This document shows, in pieces, positions 3,322-50,202 of a DNA stretch of 64,000 bases (position 1 is its first letter; every line of letters starts with the position of its first letter). Position numbers and translations under genes: made by a program. The stretch comes from an archaeon (GTDB taxonomy: Archaea > Nanobdellota > Nanobdellia > Woesearchaeales > GW2011-AR9). The stretch lies in the NCBI GenBank assembly GCA_018696395.1, contig JABHQR010000001.1:1-64000 (forward strand), read 5' to 3'. Under the pieces are notes generated by a model. It was not told the DNA's origin. It did not search any database and was given only the letters and a program-made list of their open reading frames with translations.

Positions 3322-5922
3322 ATGGCTGATAATTTAGAAAAAATTAGTGCAGTATTAGGAATACCATTCTCAGAATTAATTGATACTAGCAGATATGAAT
3401 ATATAAGAGGCATTGGATCAGGTACATTTTCTGATGTGAGCCTAGAAAGATCACCTGATTTAAATGAAGTTGCAGTTAAAGAATATAGGTTAGGGATAAG
3501 GGATTTAAAAGAAGCAAGTTTAAATGAAATGAAAGCAGAGTTTGAGTTAAGAAAAAAATCATTTCAAAGAGAATTTAAAACTTATAAAAAAGTTCAACAT
3601 AATCAGATACCTTTATTTCACGGAGTTGGAGCATTTTCAAGAGAACGAGGAAAATTTTTAGAATTTCAACCTAAGTTAATTTTAGAATTTATTGATGGAG
3701 AAACATTATCTGATAAAATCAAAAATGGTGGTTTAAGTTCAGAAGATATCAGAAAAAACTTTTTTGATGTACTGAACCCTTTAGAAGCATTACATTACGC
3801 AAATTCTAAACCAATATTTCATCGTGATCTTAAACCAGCTAATCTTAAAATAAATTCTGAAGGATTAATTTATCTGTTAGATTTTGGAACAGTAAGAGAC
3901 GAATTATTGAAAACTAATAGAGGTAGTATGGCAGTAGGAACGTTAGGGTATGTTCACCCAAAACAATTTGAGGGAGAACCATCGTTCAGAACTGATTTAT
4001 ATTCATTAGCAGCAACTTTTTATGCAGTAAGCGTAGGAAAAGAATTAGAAGCTTATGAAAGATTATCTTCTGAATTACTTGAACAAACTAACCTTGATCA
4101 ACATATGAAAAAAATTATTTATTTACTTTACGATTTTGAATTAAGAGGACCACAGAATATTAAGGAGTTACGAGATTATTTAGAAAGGCCAATTGAAGTT
4201 AGAGGAAAAGATACCATTGAAAGTGAAAATGTTATTGGTTTTGATAAAATATTTGATGACGTCATAGAAAAAGGTTTACAAGAGTTAGATTTACTATTTC
4301 CATCAAGTAACGAATTAAAACCTTTTGAAATAGAAGAGGACAAGAAACTAACAAGATTAGAAGTAGAAAGTATAGAAAAAAAACTAAAGGATAATAGAAC
4401 TTCAAGAAGACTAAGTTTAATTTCAGGAACATATGCAGCAGCAGCAGCAGCAATGGTTTCACCAATGGTGGGAATACTAATTGACCCATTAACAGGATTA
4501 ATTGCTACTGCTTCCGCAGGTTTTGGAATAAGGTATCTTCATTTAAAAAATAAACAAAGAGGATTAGAAGAAGATCTCAATATTGTAAATGAAGAGAATG
4601 GTGTTATTAGGACAATAAAAGGAAATTTATATGAAGCTAAACAAAAATTGACATCATATAAAAAAACTCCAAACATAATACTTCCAGCATTTAATTTGCT
4701 TGGAACATATTTTCTCTGTACAGAAAGTTATACTGTAGCAGGGATTTATTATGGATTAACATCATTAATAGGATTATTAGAGAATAAACCATCTCACCCA
4801 TGTGAATTCAGAGTAAAAGACCTTGAAAAACAACTTCAGCAGACTATTGAAGAATCCATAAATACCAGAAAAGAAATAATACTAAAAGAATCAAGTTTAC
4901 TAAATAAATTATGGAATTCAAGGTTAGTAATTAAGTTGTGGAATTATCACTTAAATGCTGGTGAAAGACTGTATGAGACAAGTGTTGCAGATGATTCAAG
5001 TATGACTGTAAAAGATATGAAAAGATTAGCTAAAAGAAAAGAACTATTTGCATTAGTTGCAGAAGACCCTAAAAGAAAAGCAAGATTAGAGGAGATATTA
5101 CAAGATCATGAGATCCCAATAAAACCCCAATCATTCATTAAAAAGTTATACAATGAAATCAAAGGAATTAAAGGTTATTATGAACAATTCCATGAGAAGA
5201 TTGAAGAATATCATGACATATATAATTTCCAAAACTTTAATTTAACTAAAGTTAAAAAAATGATTAAAGATGCTGAAATTTTAAGGATTTTAGGAGGCAT
5301 ACAAGAAAATCAAGATTATACTTTTTTATATGAAACATTATTTACAAATAAAAAATCAACAATAAATAATGCTTCAGATGGTGGAAATAGTTACTTACTT
5401 GAAACAACGATTAAAGAGATTAGAGAAATTGAAAGAGACACTGGGATTGATAATTTTTCTGAGATTTTAGAAAAAAATTTTAGAAAAAGATGTAAAAGAA
5501 ATTATAAGAATTTTATATCATTTAATTTAGATAGAGATAAAAAAATTAAAGCAAAACAATTAGAATTAAAAAATAGTGGTTATGATCTTAACATTTGGGA
5601 TGAATTTATGGAATTAACAGAAGAATGGTGTAGTTATCAAATGATGGACATGGAATATGTTCCAAAAGAAATAATTAAAAAATCATATCTCACCACACCA
5701 GCAAGAGTTTACACCTATAATCAACTAACAGAATATAGAACAACAGTCCTTAATGAAGATTTAGAGTTTACTGATGTTACTAGAAAAATAGGTTATTTTA
5801 GAAATTTTGCTAAAGAAAGAAACATAAATTGGGACGAACACTTTCAAGAACAAGAAAAAGAAATTATTCGAGTAGCTGCTGCCAAAAGCAATAGATTGAT
5901 GGTATTAAACAGTGAATTATAA
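3322..5922 (+). CDS. membrane-anchored Hanks-type Ser/Thr protein kinase
   Basis: A full protein kinase domain spans about residues 22-290: glycine loop RGIGSGTFSDV (29-39), ATP-anchoring K53 in AVKEY, catalytic HRDLKPAN (167-174), metal-binding DFG (187-189), and a conserved FRTDLYSLAATF helix (222-233). Two hydrophobic stretches follow, near 368-405 and 447-485, and should place the protein in the membrane. The remaining 380 residues are highly charged and probably form coiled coils. The start is ATG, with no clear Shine-Dalgarno, downstream of an AT-rich promoter region. The layout (kinase, hydrophobic hairpin, long helical tail) is the same as in the protein at 47083, so the two are paralogues. 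Substrates are unknown. Confidence 0.85.
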   Translation: MADNLEKISAVLGIPFSELIDTSRYEYIRGIGSGTFSDVSLERSPDLNEVAVKEYRLGIRDLKEASLNEMKAEFELRKKSFQREFKTYKKVQHNQIPLFHGVGAFSRERGKFLEFQPKLILEFIDGETLSDKIKNGGLSSEDIRKNFFDVLNPLEALHYANSKPIFHRDLKPANLKINSEGLIYLLDFGTVRDELLKTNRGSMAVGTLGYVHPKQFEGEPSFRTDLYSLAATFYAVSVGKELEAYERLSSELLEQTNLDQHMKKIIYLLYDFELRGPQNIKELRDYLERPIEVRGKDTIESENVIGFDKIFDDVIEKGLQELDLLFPSSNELKPFEIEEDKKLTRLEVESIEKKLKDNRTSRRLSLISGTYAAAAAAMVSPMVGILIDPLTGLIATASAGFGIRYLHLKNKQRGLEEDLNIVNEENGVIRTIKGNLYEAKQKLTSYKKTPNIILPAFNLLGTYFLCTESYTVAGIYYGLTSLIGLLENKPSHPCEFRVKDLEKQLQQTIEESINTRKEIILKESSLLNKLWNSRLVIKLWNYHLNAGERLYETSVADDSSMTVKDMKRLAKRKELFALVAEDPKRKARLEEILQDHEIPIKPQSFIKKLYNEIKGIKGYYEQFHEKIEEYHDIYNFQNFNLTKVKKMIKDAEILRILGGIQENQDYTFLYETLFTNKKSTINNASDGGNSYLLETTIKEIREIERDTGIDNFSEILEKNFRKRCKRNYKNFISFNLDRDKKIKAKQLELKNSGYDLNIWDEFMELTEEWCSYQMMDMEYVPKEIIKKSYLTTPARVYTYNQLTEYRTTVLNEDLEFTDVTRKIGYFRNFAKERNINWDEHFQEQEKEIIRVAAAKSNRLMVLNSEL

Positions 5923-30353: not shown

Positions 30354-30450
30354 TGGCCCCACCGAGATTTGAACTCGGGACTTCACGATTTCTTTTCGGA
30401 ATAATTCCCAATTATCAGTCGTGCGCTCTACCAAACTAAGCCATGGGGCC
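30354..30450 (-). tRNA. tRNA-Ile (GAU) with a canonical-position intron
   Basis: Reading the minus strand, the acceptor GGCCCCA (30450 downward) pairs with TGGGGCC (30361-30355), followed by discriminator A at 30354. The D-arm, the T-arm with loop TTCAAAT, and an anticodon stem CACGA/TCGTG are all intact once an insert of about 23 bases (30389-30411) after loop CTGATAA is removed. The anticodon is GAT (bases 30416-30414). The insert is at the usual 37/38 archaeal position and can fold with the anticodon region, as expected for splicing-endonuclease introns. CCA is not fully encoded (CCT follows the discriminator). Confidence 0.93.
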
Positions 30451-46563: not shown

Positions 46564-46571
46564 TTATAAAT
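46564..46571 (+). promoter_or_regulatory. TATA box of the tRNA-Phe gene
   Basis: TTATAAAT ends 26 bases before the mature tRNA 5' end (46598), standard archaeal spacing for a transcript beginning at or near the tRNA. Confidence 0.55.
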
Positions 46572-46597: not shown

Positions 46598-46714
46598 GGG
46601 GCTGTAGCTCAATCTGGGACGCAAGAAAGTAAACTTACTGAGTTTACTGCTAGCGCAGGAAAGAGCACTAGACTGAAGATCTAGGTGTTCGGGGTTCAAA
46701 TCCCCGCAGCCCCA
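46598..46714 (+). tRNA. tRNA-Phe (GAA) with a noncanonical D-loop intron
   Basis: Acceptor GGGGCTG (46598-46604) pairs with CAGCCCC (46707-46713), discriminator A 46714. D-stem GCTC (46607-46610) pairs with GAGC (46663-46666), the anticodon arm CTAGA-CTGAAGA-TCTAG has anticodon GAA and no intron, and the T-arm is CGGGG-TTCAAAT-CCCCG. A normal nine-base D-loop, AATCTGGGA, results only if 43 bases (about 46619-46661) are removed. The insert carries a six-base-pair hairpin, GTAAAC/GTTTAC. The junctions form a bulge-helix-bulge: bulge GGA (46617-46619), helix TCTG/CAGG, bulge AAA (46660-46662). Introns away from position 37/38 are rare and known mainly from Thermoproteota and some DPANN. CCA is not encoded. 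Confidence 0.92.
46619..46661 (+). other. predicted noncanonical intron within tRNA-Phe
   Basis: Removing these 43 bases restores a consensus D-arm. Inner pairing CGC/GCG (46620-46622 with 46653-46655) and the hairpin GTAAAC (46629-46634)/GTTTAC (46642-46647) support it. Cleavage between the second and third base of each bulge is assumed; the exact cuts could shift by one base without changing the joined sequence. Confidence 0.75.
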
Positions 46715-46771: not shown

Positions 46772-47083
46772 ATGGATTACTTACAATTTCATGATATTAA
46801 AATACCTTACCAAGGCCAAGAGTTAGGAATATTTTTGAATGGATCATATAATACTTATTTATCAATTGATGTTGAAAGGATACAAGAACAGTTTAATTTC
46901 ATACCAAAAGATGATTGTATTAAATCTATTGATAATTTTCTTAAAAAATCAGAAACTGATTTACGAGAGATTACAGGAGTTCATTCAAAAAGATATAATA
47001 TACCACATTATAAAGTTCAAGGGATAACAAATTCTGTTAATTTAATGAGAGATGTATTAGATGCGTTAAGAGGAACGCAATAA
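46772..47083 (+). CDS. small protein translationally coupled to the second kinase
   Basis: 103 residues from ATG 46772. The longer reading frame to 46685 begins inside the tRNA and is rejected. The sequence MDYLQFHDIKIPYQGQELGI looks beta-rich and soluble, then helical at the end. Its TAA (47081-47083) shares one base with the kinase ATG (47083-47085), so ribosomes likely reinitiate. Such coupling often marks a partner or regulator. It begins 57 bases after the tRNA-Phe, with no obvious promoter of its own. Family not recognised. Confidence 0.7.
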   Translation: MDYLQFHDIKIPYQGQELGIFLNGSYNTYLSIDVERIQEQFNFIPKDDCIKSIDNFLKKSETDLREITGVHSKRYNIPHYKVQGITNSVNLMRDVLDALRGTQ

Positions 47084-50000
47084 TGTCTACAAATCAACCA
47101 CTTAAAATACACATTGGAAGATCAAGAGCTAATGATAATAATAAACAACAGGAACAAATATCTAACCAAAATCCTACAACAATAGCTCAACAATCAGTTA
47201 GATCATTAGATGAACAATTAAAAAATCCAACACATCAAGAATTAAGTGTATTATTAAAAATACCTAGAAACCAAATTAGAAACATTTCTGATTTTCAAAT
47301 TATTGAAAGGTTAGGTAGAGGAACTTATTCTCGTGTATACAAAGCATTAAATCCAGAACAAAATATTGTTGCAATTAAAGAATATAATTTTGCTTTAACT
47401 TTAAATCAATTTGATGAAGAGAAAGAAGCATTTCAAAGAGAAGCTGCTTTGTTTAGAGATTTAGGTTATCATGAGCAGATACCAACATGTATAGCTATTG
47501 CCGCAAGAATTTCGGAACATACAGGAGATTTTATTGAATATAACCCATCCATTGTCATGGAACATGTTACTGGTAAAACCTTGGCTGAACGTATTGCCTT
47601 AAAAGAAGGATTTACTCCAGAACAGATTAGAAATTTAATTGAACAATCAAGAAGCCCATTAAACGCATTACATCATGGCAATTCTCAACCCAGATTTCAT
47701 CGTGATATTAAACCTGCAAATCTAAAACTTAATGATTCTGGTTTACTTTACATCCTAGATTTTGGAAGTGTAAGAGATACTTTAATTGGAACATTTGGCG
47801 GAACAATGGGTAAAGGTAGTTTAGGTTATGTCCACAAAGAACAGTTTTCTGGTAATCCATCGTTCAGAACAGATTTATATTCATTAGGAAGAACACTTTA
47901 TGCTGCAGCCATTGGAAAAGAGATGAACCCTTATGAAGAATTTTCTCAAGAAAAATTAGATCAAACTAATTTAGACCATAATACTAAAGAAATTATTGAA
48001 ATACTTTGTAGAGAAGATTTGTCTGGACCACAAAACATTGCTGAATTAAGTGAATTAATTAATCCTATACCAAATGAAGTAAGAGGAGAAGAGAGTACAG
48101 AGTTAGAGGTTGCTGGAGAAAGAGAGATAGATAAGGAGAAGTTAAGTAGAAAAAGATTACAGATAGGATTAATTGATTTATTGTTAAAACCAAATCAGAT
48201 TAGTCAAATCAGATCTTTAAATTATATTTCAGCACTAGGTTCAACTTACGTTGCCTTAAGAATTTATCAAAATACACAAAGCTCATTATTAGCAGGACTG
48301 ACTTTATTAGCACCTTTTGGTTTTTCTTTAGCAAATTATTACCTCATTAGAAGTGATAAGAAAAAAATAAATCAAAGAGATTACGAAATCAGACAATTAG
48401 AAAATGAAATGGATCAAATTTCTCAAGGAACATTAGTGCAAGGTGAAGGTTTAGAGTGGCATGAGAATGAGTTAAAGAAAAGTAAAAGAACTAGTTTACT
48501 TGATCCAATCCACGCTCTTTCAACTTCAATATCTACTGTTTCAAATTTAATTAATGTCATATCCTATTTGAAAGGAGACTTCACGATATTACTAGGTTCT
48601 TTAGCAGTTAGTGGAATTACAACCCCCATAGCAGCATACCTAACTAACAAAGGAATAAAAGATATTTATAATATTAAAAAATCAAGTGAAGCTATCGCAA
48701 TAATAAATGAACAAGACTCAAAAATTAAAGTAGCTAGAAGAAAAGCGTTTGATTTAAAATTTGACAAGTATACACATAAACATGAAGAGCAAGGATTAGG
48801 TTACTTTGTTAGAAGAAAGTTAAGGAAGAAAAGGAAAATAGAGAGAAAAAAGTTAATTACTAAAATTCAAAGTATTGATCAACAAAGAGAGGATCAAGGT
48901 ATTGCCGAATATTTACATGAATCAAATGCAATAAGAGCTAAAGAATTAGAAGAGGAGTTATCTGAAGAAAAAAATGAACTAACACAGATTATAAAAGAAG
49001 AATCAAATAAATTTGAACCTTTGCAAAGAGAACTTGCTAGAGCTAGTAGAGTACATAGAAAGAAAAAATCATTTTATTTTAGAAGAACAACAACATCGAA
49101 AAAAGGTAAACAATTATTTAATTCACAAGGATCAGAACAAACTAGCAATGGCGAACCACTTTACCTTGGGGCATTAACACATGAGCCAAAAGTTGAAGAT
49201 ATTGAAACTGCAATTAATTTAATTAACTTCTTCTACGACAAATATTCAAAATCTAAAGATTCTGCTATTTTAACATTACAAAAAATTTCAAGAAGAGATG
49301 ATTATTCTGTCACAATTAAAAAAATAAAAAGAGACATAAAGGAACTTAAATCAACAGGGATCAGAATAAATGATTTAGAATCTACAATTAATAATGTAGA
49401 GAAAAAAAGGATTAATTTAGGTATAACAAAACCAAGATTTGATCATCAAAAATTGCTAAGAGATAATGCAAGAAATAGAAACTTATATCTTAGTGATCAG
49501 ATTAGAAAAATGTCTTTGAGAGGTTCAAGAAAAGAAGATTTTGATCATTCTATAAATGAATTACGAGAATTATACAAATCATTTCAAAATGAAGAAAAAA
49601 TAGACATTGACCAATTTGAATGGTTATGGGAATTTAATAATGTGAAGTTAGCTGATTACAATTCTTTAGATGAAAAAGTTGAAGCATACATTGGGTTGGT
49701 AGACATGTTTGATGAAAGTCCTGAACATGCTAAATCAATTTACAGAAAAGCTATTTATCTTGCAAAAGATGGTTACAGGTATGGTTGTTGGGGGTTTTCA
49801 GATACATTTGAAGAATTAAAACAAAAGTTTGATTTGGACATTCCTATTGGGATAAATCAATTAATTGAAAGCATTTACAAAGAAGTTATTTTTGAAACAG
49901 TTCCGAAAATATTAGATGAACATTACTTAAAAAAAAGAAATGACCATGAGTGGTACCCAGATATTGAGATTAAAGAGATGAAAAGATATGTTAATGATAT

Positions 50001-50202
50001 TGTTGAGAACATTGAATCCGCATCAAATGAACATGTTAATTATTGGAGTAATTATTGGAATGAAAAATATCATGATTTTATTAAAAATGAAAGGCACCCA
50101 GAAGTAATCAAGGCAACCCACCAATTAAATGAGATTTACCATATAAGAAAATTAGGATTATTAGTACAAGAAATGAATGAAGCAAATAAAGCAATGAACT
50201 AA
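47083..50202 (+). CDS. second large membrane-anchored protein kinase
   Basis: 1039 residues. A Gln/Asn-rich leader (1-65) is followed by a full kinase domain: glycine loop ERLGRGTYSRV (75-85), K99 in AIKEY, HRDIKPAN (206-213), DFG (226-228) and FRTDLYSLGRTLY (261-273). Hydrophobic stretches follow at roughly 375-425 and 495-545. About 480 charged, helical residues make up the tail. The arrangement repeats the kinase at 3322 (kinase, hydrophobic hairpins, long helical tail); shared wording includes FRTDLYSL and a GxLGYVHxxQF activation segment. The upstream small ORF is coupled to it. Its end overlaps the convergent metalloprotease gene by four bases. Confidence 0.88.
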   Translation: MSTNQPLKIHIGRSRANDNNKQQEQISNQNPTTIAQQSVRSLDEQLKNPTHQELSVLLKIPRNQIRNISDFQIIERLGRGTYSRVYKALNPEQNIVAIKEYNFALTLNQFDEEKEAFQREAALFRDLGYHEQIPTCIAIAARISEHTGDFIEYNPSIVMEHVTGKTLAERIALKEGFTPEQIRNLIEQSRSPLNALHHGNSQPRFHRDIKPANLKLNDSGLLYILDFGSVRDTLIGTFGGTMGKGSLGYVHKEQFSGNPSFRTDLYSLGRTLYAAAIGKEMNPYEEFSQEKLDQTNLDHNTKEIIEILCREDLSGPQNIAELSELINPIPNEVRGEESTELEVAGEREIDKEKLSRKRLQIGLIDLLLKPNQISQIRSLNYISALGSTYVALRIYQNTQSSLLAGLTLLAPFGFSLANYYLIRSDKKKINQRDYEIRQLENEMDQISQGTLVQGEGLEWHENELKKSKRTSLLDPIHALSTSISTVSNLINVISYLKGDFTILLGSLAVSGITTPIAAYLTNKGIKDIYNIKKSSEAIAIINEQDSKIKVARRKAFDLKFDKYTHKHEEQGLGYFVRRKLRKKRKIERKKLITKIQSIDQQREDQGIAEYLHESNAIRAKELEEELSEEKNELTQIIKEESNKFEPLQRELARASRVHRKKKSFYFRRTTTSKKGKQLFNSQGSEQTSNGEPLYLGALTHEPKVEDIETAINLINFFYDKYSKSKDSAILTLQKISRRDDYSVTIKKIKRDIKELKSTGIRINDLESTINNVEKKRINLGITKPRFDHQKLLRDNARNRNLYLSDQIRKMSLRGSRKEDFDHSINELRELYKSFQNEEKIDIDQFEWLWEFNNVKLADYNSLDEKVEAYIGLVDMFDESPEHAKSIYRKAIYLAKDGYRYGCWGFSDTFEELKQKFDLDIPIGINQLIESIYKEVIFETVPKILDEHYLKKRNDHEWYPDIEIKEMKRYVNDIVENIESASNEHVNYWSNYWNEKYHDFIKNERHPEVIKATHQLNEIYHIRKLGLLVQEMNEANKAMN

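Follow-up and report, generated by a model that had tools for sequence, protein, structure and literature searches.

A predicted noncanonical bulge-helix-bulge intron at position 20/21 of tRNA-Phe in a Woesearchaeota-like archaeon

Introduction

Position 20/21 is a known site of noncanonical tRNA introns in Crenarchaeota and Nanoarchaeota, in which multiple introns may interrupt a single tRNA (PMC4090602). The system described here shares with those introns the position, the bulge-helix-bulge (BHB) principle, and the fact that one tRNA may have several introns, but its host is a Woesearchaeota-like DPANN archaeon. Canonical BHB introns at position 37/38 resemble the present one in their 3-nt bulges, 4-bp central helix, and (predicted here) cleavage between the second and third bulge nucleotides. 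In contrast, the present intron lies in the D-loop, and two unpaired bases set its outer helix, the D-stem, apart from the motif.

As for the splicing endonuclease EndA, the alpha4 enzyme of Methanocaldococcus jannaschii (1a79) and the one studied here have in common a single gene, N and C domains, aligned Tyr/His/Lys residues, an acidic loop, and no extra loop. Unlike the M. jannaschii case, the present host has D-loop, T-loop, and 30/31 introns and an EndA with a Lys-rich tail of about 75 residues. The (alpha-beta)2 EndA of Nanoarchaeum equitans (3iey) is the closest solved sequence, and its host also has noncanonical introns, but only one EndA subunit gene was found in the present genome. 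ARMAN-2 EndA (epsilon-2, with an ASL loop; PMC12397907) likewise belongs to a DPANN host with noncanonical introns; it is a three-unit fusion with a specific loop, whereas the present EndA is one unit long. The range of introns cut by the endonuclease (PMC4033280) has been tied to the CSL and ASL loops (PMC12397907), and relaxed motifs are reportedly not removed efficiently by alpha-type enzymes (PMC6379350). A search of open-access papers returned none on tRNA introns of Woesearchaeota.

Here I analysed a 64,000-nt stretch of contig JABHQR010000001.1 (assembly GCA_018696395.1, positions 1 to 64,000), hereafter the window, together with the rest of the genome, covered by targeted searches and short stretches of sequence, and its relatives. 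The working tRNA-Phe gene of this genome almost certainly carries a noncanonical archaeal BHB intron at position 20/21. This reading is based on the exact geometry of the cut sites, covariation, the presence or absence of the insert in relatives with unchanged exons, and the failure to find a second tRNA-Phe gene. Neither the kind of intron nor its site is new; what was less expected is the enzyme.

Results and Discussion

An interrupted tRNA-Phe gene

As read from the sequence, a complete tRNA-Phe(GAA) gene lies at 46598-46714 on the forward strand and would give a 117-nt RNA. All arms are present, as stated in the initial annotation: the acceptor stem GGGGCTG/CAGCCCC with discriminator A, the D-stem GCTC/GAGC, the anticodon arm CTAGA-CTGAAGA-TCTAG (anticodon GAA at 46675-46677), and the T-arm CGGGG-TTCAAAT-CCCCG. 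A TATA-box-like sequence, TTATAAAT, was read 27-34 nt upstream of the gene (46564-46571), and the similar TTATAAA is found upstream of several relatives' tRNA-Phe genes. ARAGORN called no tRNA at 46598-46714 in the window, and the Rfam RF00005 match is confined to the 3′ part of the gene (46651-46706, 33.9 bits), both of which are expected for an interrupted D-arm. Directly downstream, 47083-50202 encodes a large protein with an N-terminal Ser/Thr-kinase-like domain; the protein encoded at 3322-5922 of the window is also large, has such a domain, and looks related.

An insert of exactly 43 nt (46619-46661) enlarges the D-loop at Sprinzl position 20/21 and separates a 5′ exon of positions 1-20 (46598-46618) from a 3′ exon of positions 21-73 (46662-46714). 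When one- and two-intron splice solutions were enumerated, the removal of 46619-46661 ranked first. The joined D-loop is AAUCUGGGA, identical to that of intronless relatives, and the spliced tRNA has a cloverleaf score of 37.3; the intronless tRNAs of this genome score about 33-37. The precursor folds stably, with a minimum free energy (MFE) of -48.4 kcal/mol, 4.4 s.d. below dinucleotide shuffles. The apical hairpin of the intron (AGUAAAC-UUACUGA-GUUUACU, 46628-46648) is formed in both the MFE and centroid folds. Thus, the 43-base enlargement, the hairpin fold of the insert, and the restoration of a consensus loop, all proposed in the initial annotation, were borne out. A group I intron was rejected, since its catalytic core requires a few hundred nucleotides as against the 43 nt of the insert and no match was found at the Rfam gathering threshold.

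The D-arm contains one strict 3-4-3 BHB motif, whose cuts coincide with both ends of the insert; only 25 of 20000 shuffled inserts reproduced the same cuts. In the central helix, UCUG of the exon (46613-46616) pairs with CAGG of the intron (46656-46659). The first bulge is GGA (46617-46619), with the predicted 5′ splice site between its second and third nucleotides (46618 and 46619), and it leads into an inner helix of CGC (46620-46622) and GCG (46653-46655). The second bulge, AAA (46660-46662), is indicated by the motif and by the pairing in relatives, and has the predicted 3′ splice site between 46661 and 46662. It had been proposed that the D-stem serves as the outer helix. The motif and its exact cuts stand, but the D-stem, formed in the MFE fold by GCUC (46607-46610) and GAGC (46663-46666), is displaced from the second bulge by the unpaired exon bases A14-A15 and is not stacked on the motif (0 stacked outer pairs). 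This places the 3′ splice site within a 2x3 internal loop; the strict (canonical) hBHBh′ form, in which the outer helix directly flanks the second bulge, is not seen in this gene. Since A14-A15 face the second bulge, the motif falls into the relaxed (bulge-helix-loop) class.

A single alpha-type endonuclease gene

Only one EndA gene was found in the genome (L028, 1036-1788; 250 aa), with both the N and C domains; PF01974, PF02778, and the EndA protein as queries each gave this one match. The RtcB ligase is also represented by one gene (E 3e-174). Among solved structures, the closest relatives of EndA are the N. equitans catalytic subunit (3iey_A), which is the nearest, and the M. jannaschii homotetramer (1a79). 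In the sequence alignment with 1a79 (residues 27-171), the only gap is of a single residue, which argues against a Crenarchaea-specific loop. Thus, as to the subunit type, which the initial annotation had proposed to check, the genome appears to have only the simplest, short alpha-type EndA, predicted to lack this loop. The N-terminal extension of about 75 residues is rich in Lys. Long charged tails are common in EndA of this family and do not track D-loop introns. The tail was therefore rejected as the cause of D-loop introns, since genomes of other families with such introns (for example, G071 and G092) have short EndA frames of 186-187 aa.

In the proposed mechanism, the pairing of UCUG in the D-loop exon with CAGG in the intron would leave two 3-nt bulges in the precursor. 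The endonuclease would cut between the second and third nucleotides of each bulge and free the 43 nt, and RtcB would join the exons into the normal D-loop. I infer that the tRNA-Phe precursor is cut and joined in this way and that the single alpha-type EndA is the agent. The displaced outer helix, which makes the motif a relaxed one, speaks against this full reading. Either the alpha-only EndA may tolerate the displacement, or there may be an unseen partner.

Such a partner could be a second EndA subunit that enables the removal of D-loop introns, in the manner of the (alpha-beta)2 N. equitans enzyme; this possibility concerns the enzyme and not the intron. It would fit the fact that the closest solved relative comes from a heteromeric enzyme, and a structural subunit that has diverged far enough might be missed by the searches. 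However, all three queries led to the same gene, though the EndA query was sensitive enough to match N. equitans NEQ261 in the PDB (E 1.3e-15), and EndA was found in 136 of 145 sampled genomes, nearly always as a single match. A second subunit is therefore considered unlikely. The initial annotation had taken the intron to imply an endonuclease of broad specificity. This is a reasonable conjecture, but the sole gene found is of the alpha type and lacks the loop linked to broad specificity.

The chances seem about even that, in an order of DPANN archaea, relaxed tRNA introns of the D-loop and T-loop are spliced by an alpha-only endonuclease that has neither CSL nor ASL. If true, this would break the accepted link of subunit type or specific loops to intron diversity. 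With a single 250-residue protein as the enzyme and a single 117-nt RNA as the substrate, the system offers a natural test of whether relaxed introns need special endonuclease loops or a second subunit.

Further tRNA genes with predicted introns

Judging from the predicted inserts, the genome is intron-rich in its tRNA genes, anticodon-loop inserts included. The enumeration of splice solutions gave an 18-nt intron at 30/31 with a perfect motif for tRNA-Asn (L019; contig C23, 33915-34005). tRNA-Arg(CCU) (L182; contig C8, near 114218-114296), which at 14.6 bits is well below the Rfam cut-off, has two predicted introns: a D-loop intron of 22 nt at 19/20 and another of 18 nt at 37/38. tRNA-Pro(UGG) has a D-loop intron solution with one central-helix mismatch. 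By inspection, tRNA-Ile(UAU) (L181; contig C23, 64319-64410) carries inserts in both the anticodon loop and, near 59/60, the T-loop. In the window, ARAGORN reported a 23-nt anticodon-loop insert in tRNA-Ile(GAT) (30354-30450, reverse strand), for which the splice script gave no good strict BHB. The script also gave no convincing 37/38 solution for some other tRNAs (e.g., L008, L010, L016, L018, and L022); thus, a failure on an individual gene carries no weight as evidence.

Conservation and covariation among relatives

The predicted intron is most strongly supported by the comparison with relatives. Within the family, tRNA-Phe has a D-loop insert in 18 genomes, this one included, and a plain D-loop in at least 7, as read from their sequences. 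The inserts are 20-43 nt long or absent, and the exons are unchanged. G003 and G028 have an intronless tRNA-Phe gene at the syntenic locus, next to the ribonucleotide reductase gene that also neighbours tRNA-Phe in the window. The tRNA-Phe genes of the family have two insertion points, 20/21 and 19/20. Of the 12 genomes first examined, AAYCUGGGA is restored by the top-ranked splice solution in 11 and by the second-ranked solution in the remaining one, G026. The motif was found at the proper cuts in 13 of 14 genes of the 20/21 type (this one included), as against 0.07 expected by chance.

For the motif alignment, 17 sequences, three other families included, were hand-trimmed to the motif and their apical loops were replaced by GAAA, so that the motif alone was tested. 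Overall, 96.8% of the motif cells are paired, and the D-stem is paired in 17 of 17 sequences. The central helix is paired in 98.5% of cells, a value favoured by the placement of rows on the conserved GGA and CAGG, which does not favour the inner helix; the outermost central-helix pair varies among C-G, U-A, and U-G. The covariation score is 0.324, compared with 0.137 for shuffled alignments, none of which (0 of 500) scored as high. Two-sided (compensatory) changes occur in 17 cells, and most of the covariation falls in the inner helix, where all three pairs have such changes. The loops diverge while the pairing stays constrained exactly around both cut sites.

These results bear on whether the insert might be kept in the mature tRNA-Phe as an expansion segment forming a long extra D-arm hairpin. 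Its stable fold would suit such a role, but the variation of the insert beside unchanged exons, the constraint on pairing at the cut sites, and the presence of splicing machinery and many other intron-bearing tRNAs in the same genome make retention highly improbable, and removal as an intron is the preferred reading.

D-loop inserts in tRNA-Phe were also found in six other families of the order (f19, f24, f41, f45, f48, and f67), as well as in f42 and elsewhere in the class, and tRNAs of other isotypes carry D-loop inserts too. This calls for a broader version of the earlier statement that noncanonical intron sites are seldom seen beyond Thermoproteota and a few DPANN: such inserts are common in this group, recurring in different parts of the order and also outside it. 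The tRNA-Phe of G033 has three introns, in the D-loop, anticodon loop, and T-loop. G144, from another family, has two tRNA-Phe genes (L191 and L213) with near-identical D-loop introns, and both genes also have inserts in the anticodon loop and the T-loop. Multiply interrupted tRNA genes, which escape simple tRNA finders, thus have a large and apparently undescribed reservoir in Woesearchaeota-like archaea.

The only recognised tRNA-Phe gene

The 24 contigs of the genome assembly total 1.38 Mb, with a completeness of 98.9%. Among its RF00005 matches, even at E up to 10, there was no second tRNA-Phe, and hence no normal tRNA-Phe(GAA) gene elsewhere of the kind that the initial annotation had considered. 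With 24 contigs, another copy might lie in a gap and supply the cell while the present gene is decayed or silent; this is barely credible, given the completeness of the assembly searched, the intactness of every arm, the TATA-like box, and the same arrangement kept in relatives. Neither tRNA-Trp nor tRNA-Gln was recognised among the RF00005 matches at the same E limit; their genes may be split or extensively interrupted, or may lie in gaps. Ribosomal protein L15e of the window places the host among DPANN archaea of the Woesearchaeota type: it shares 76% identity with its counterpart in Candidatus Woesearchaeota archaeon SI047_bin129, and its nearest matches are mostly from Woesearchaeota or Nanoarchaeota assemblies.
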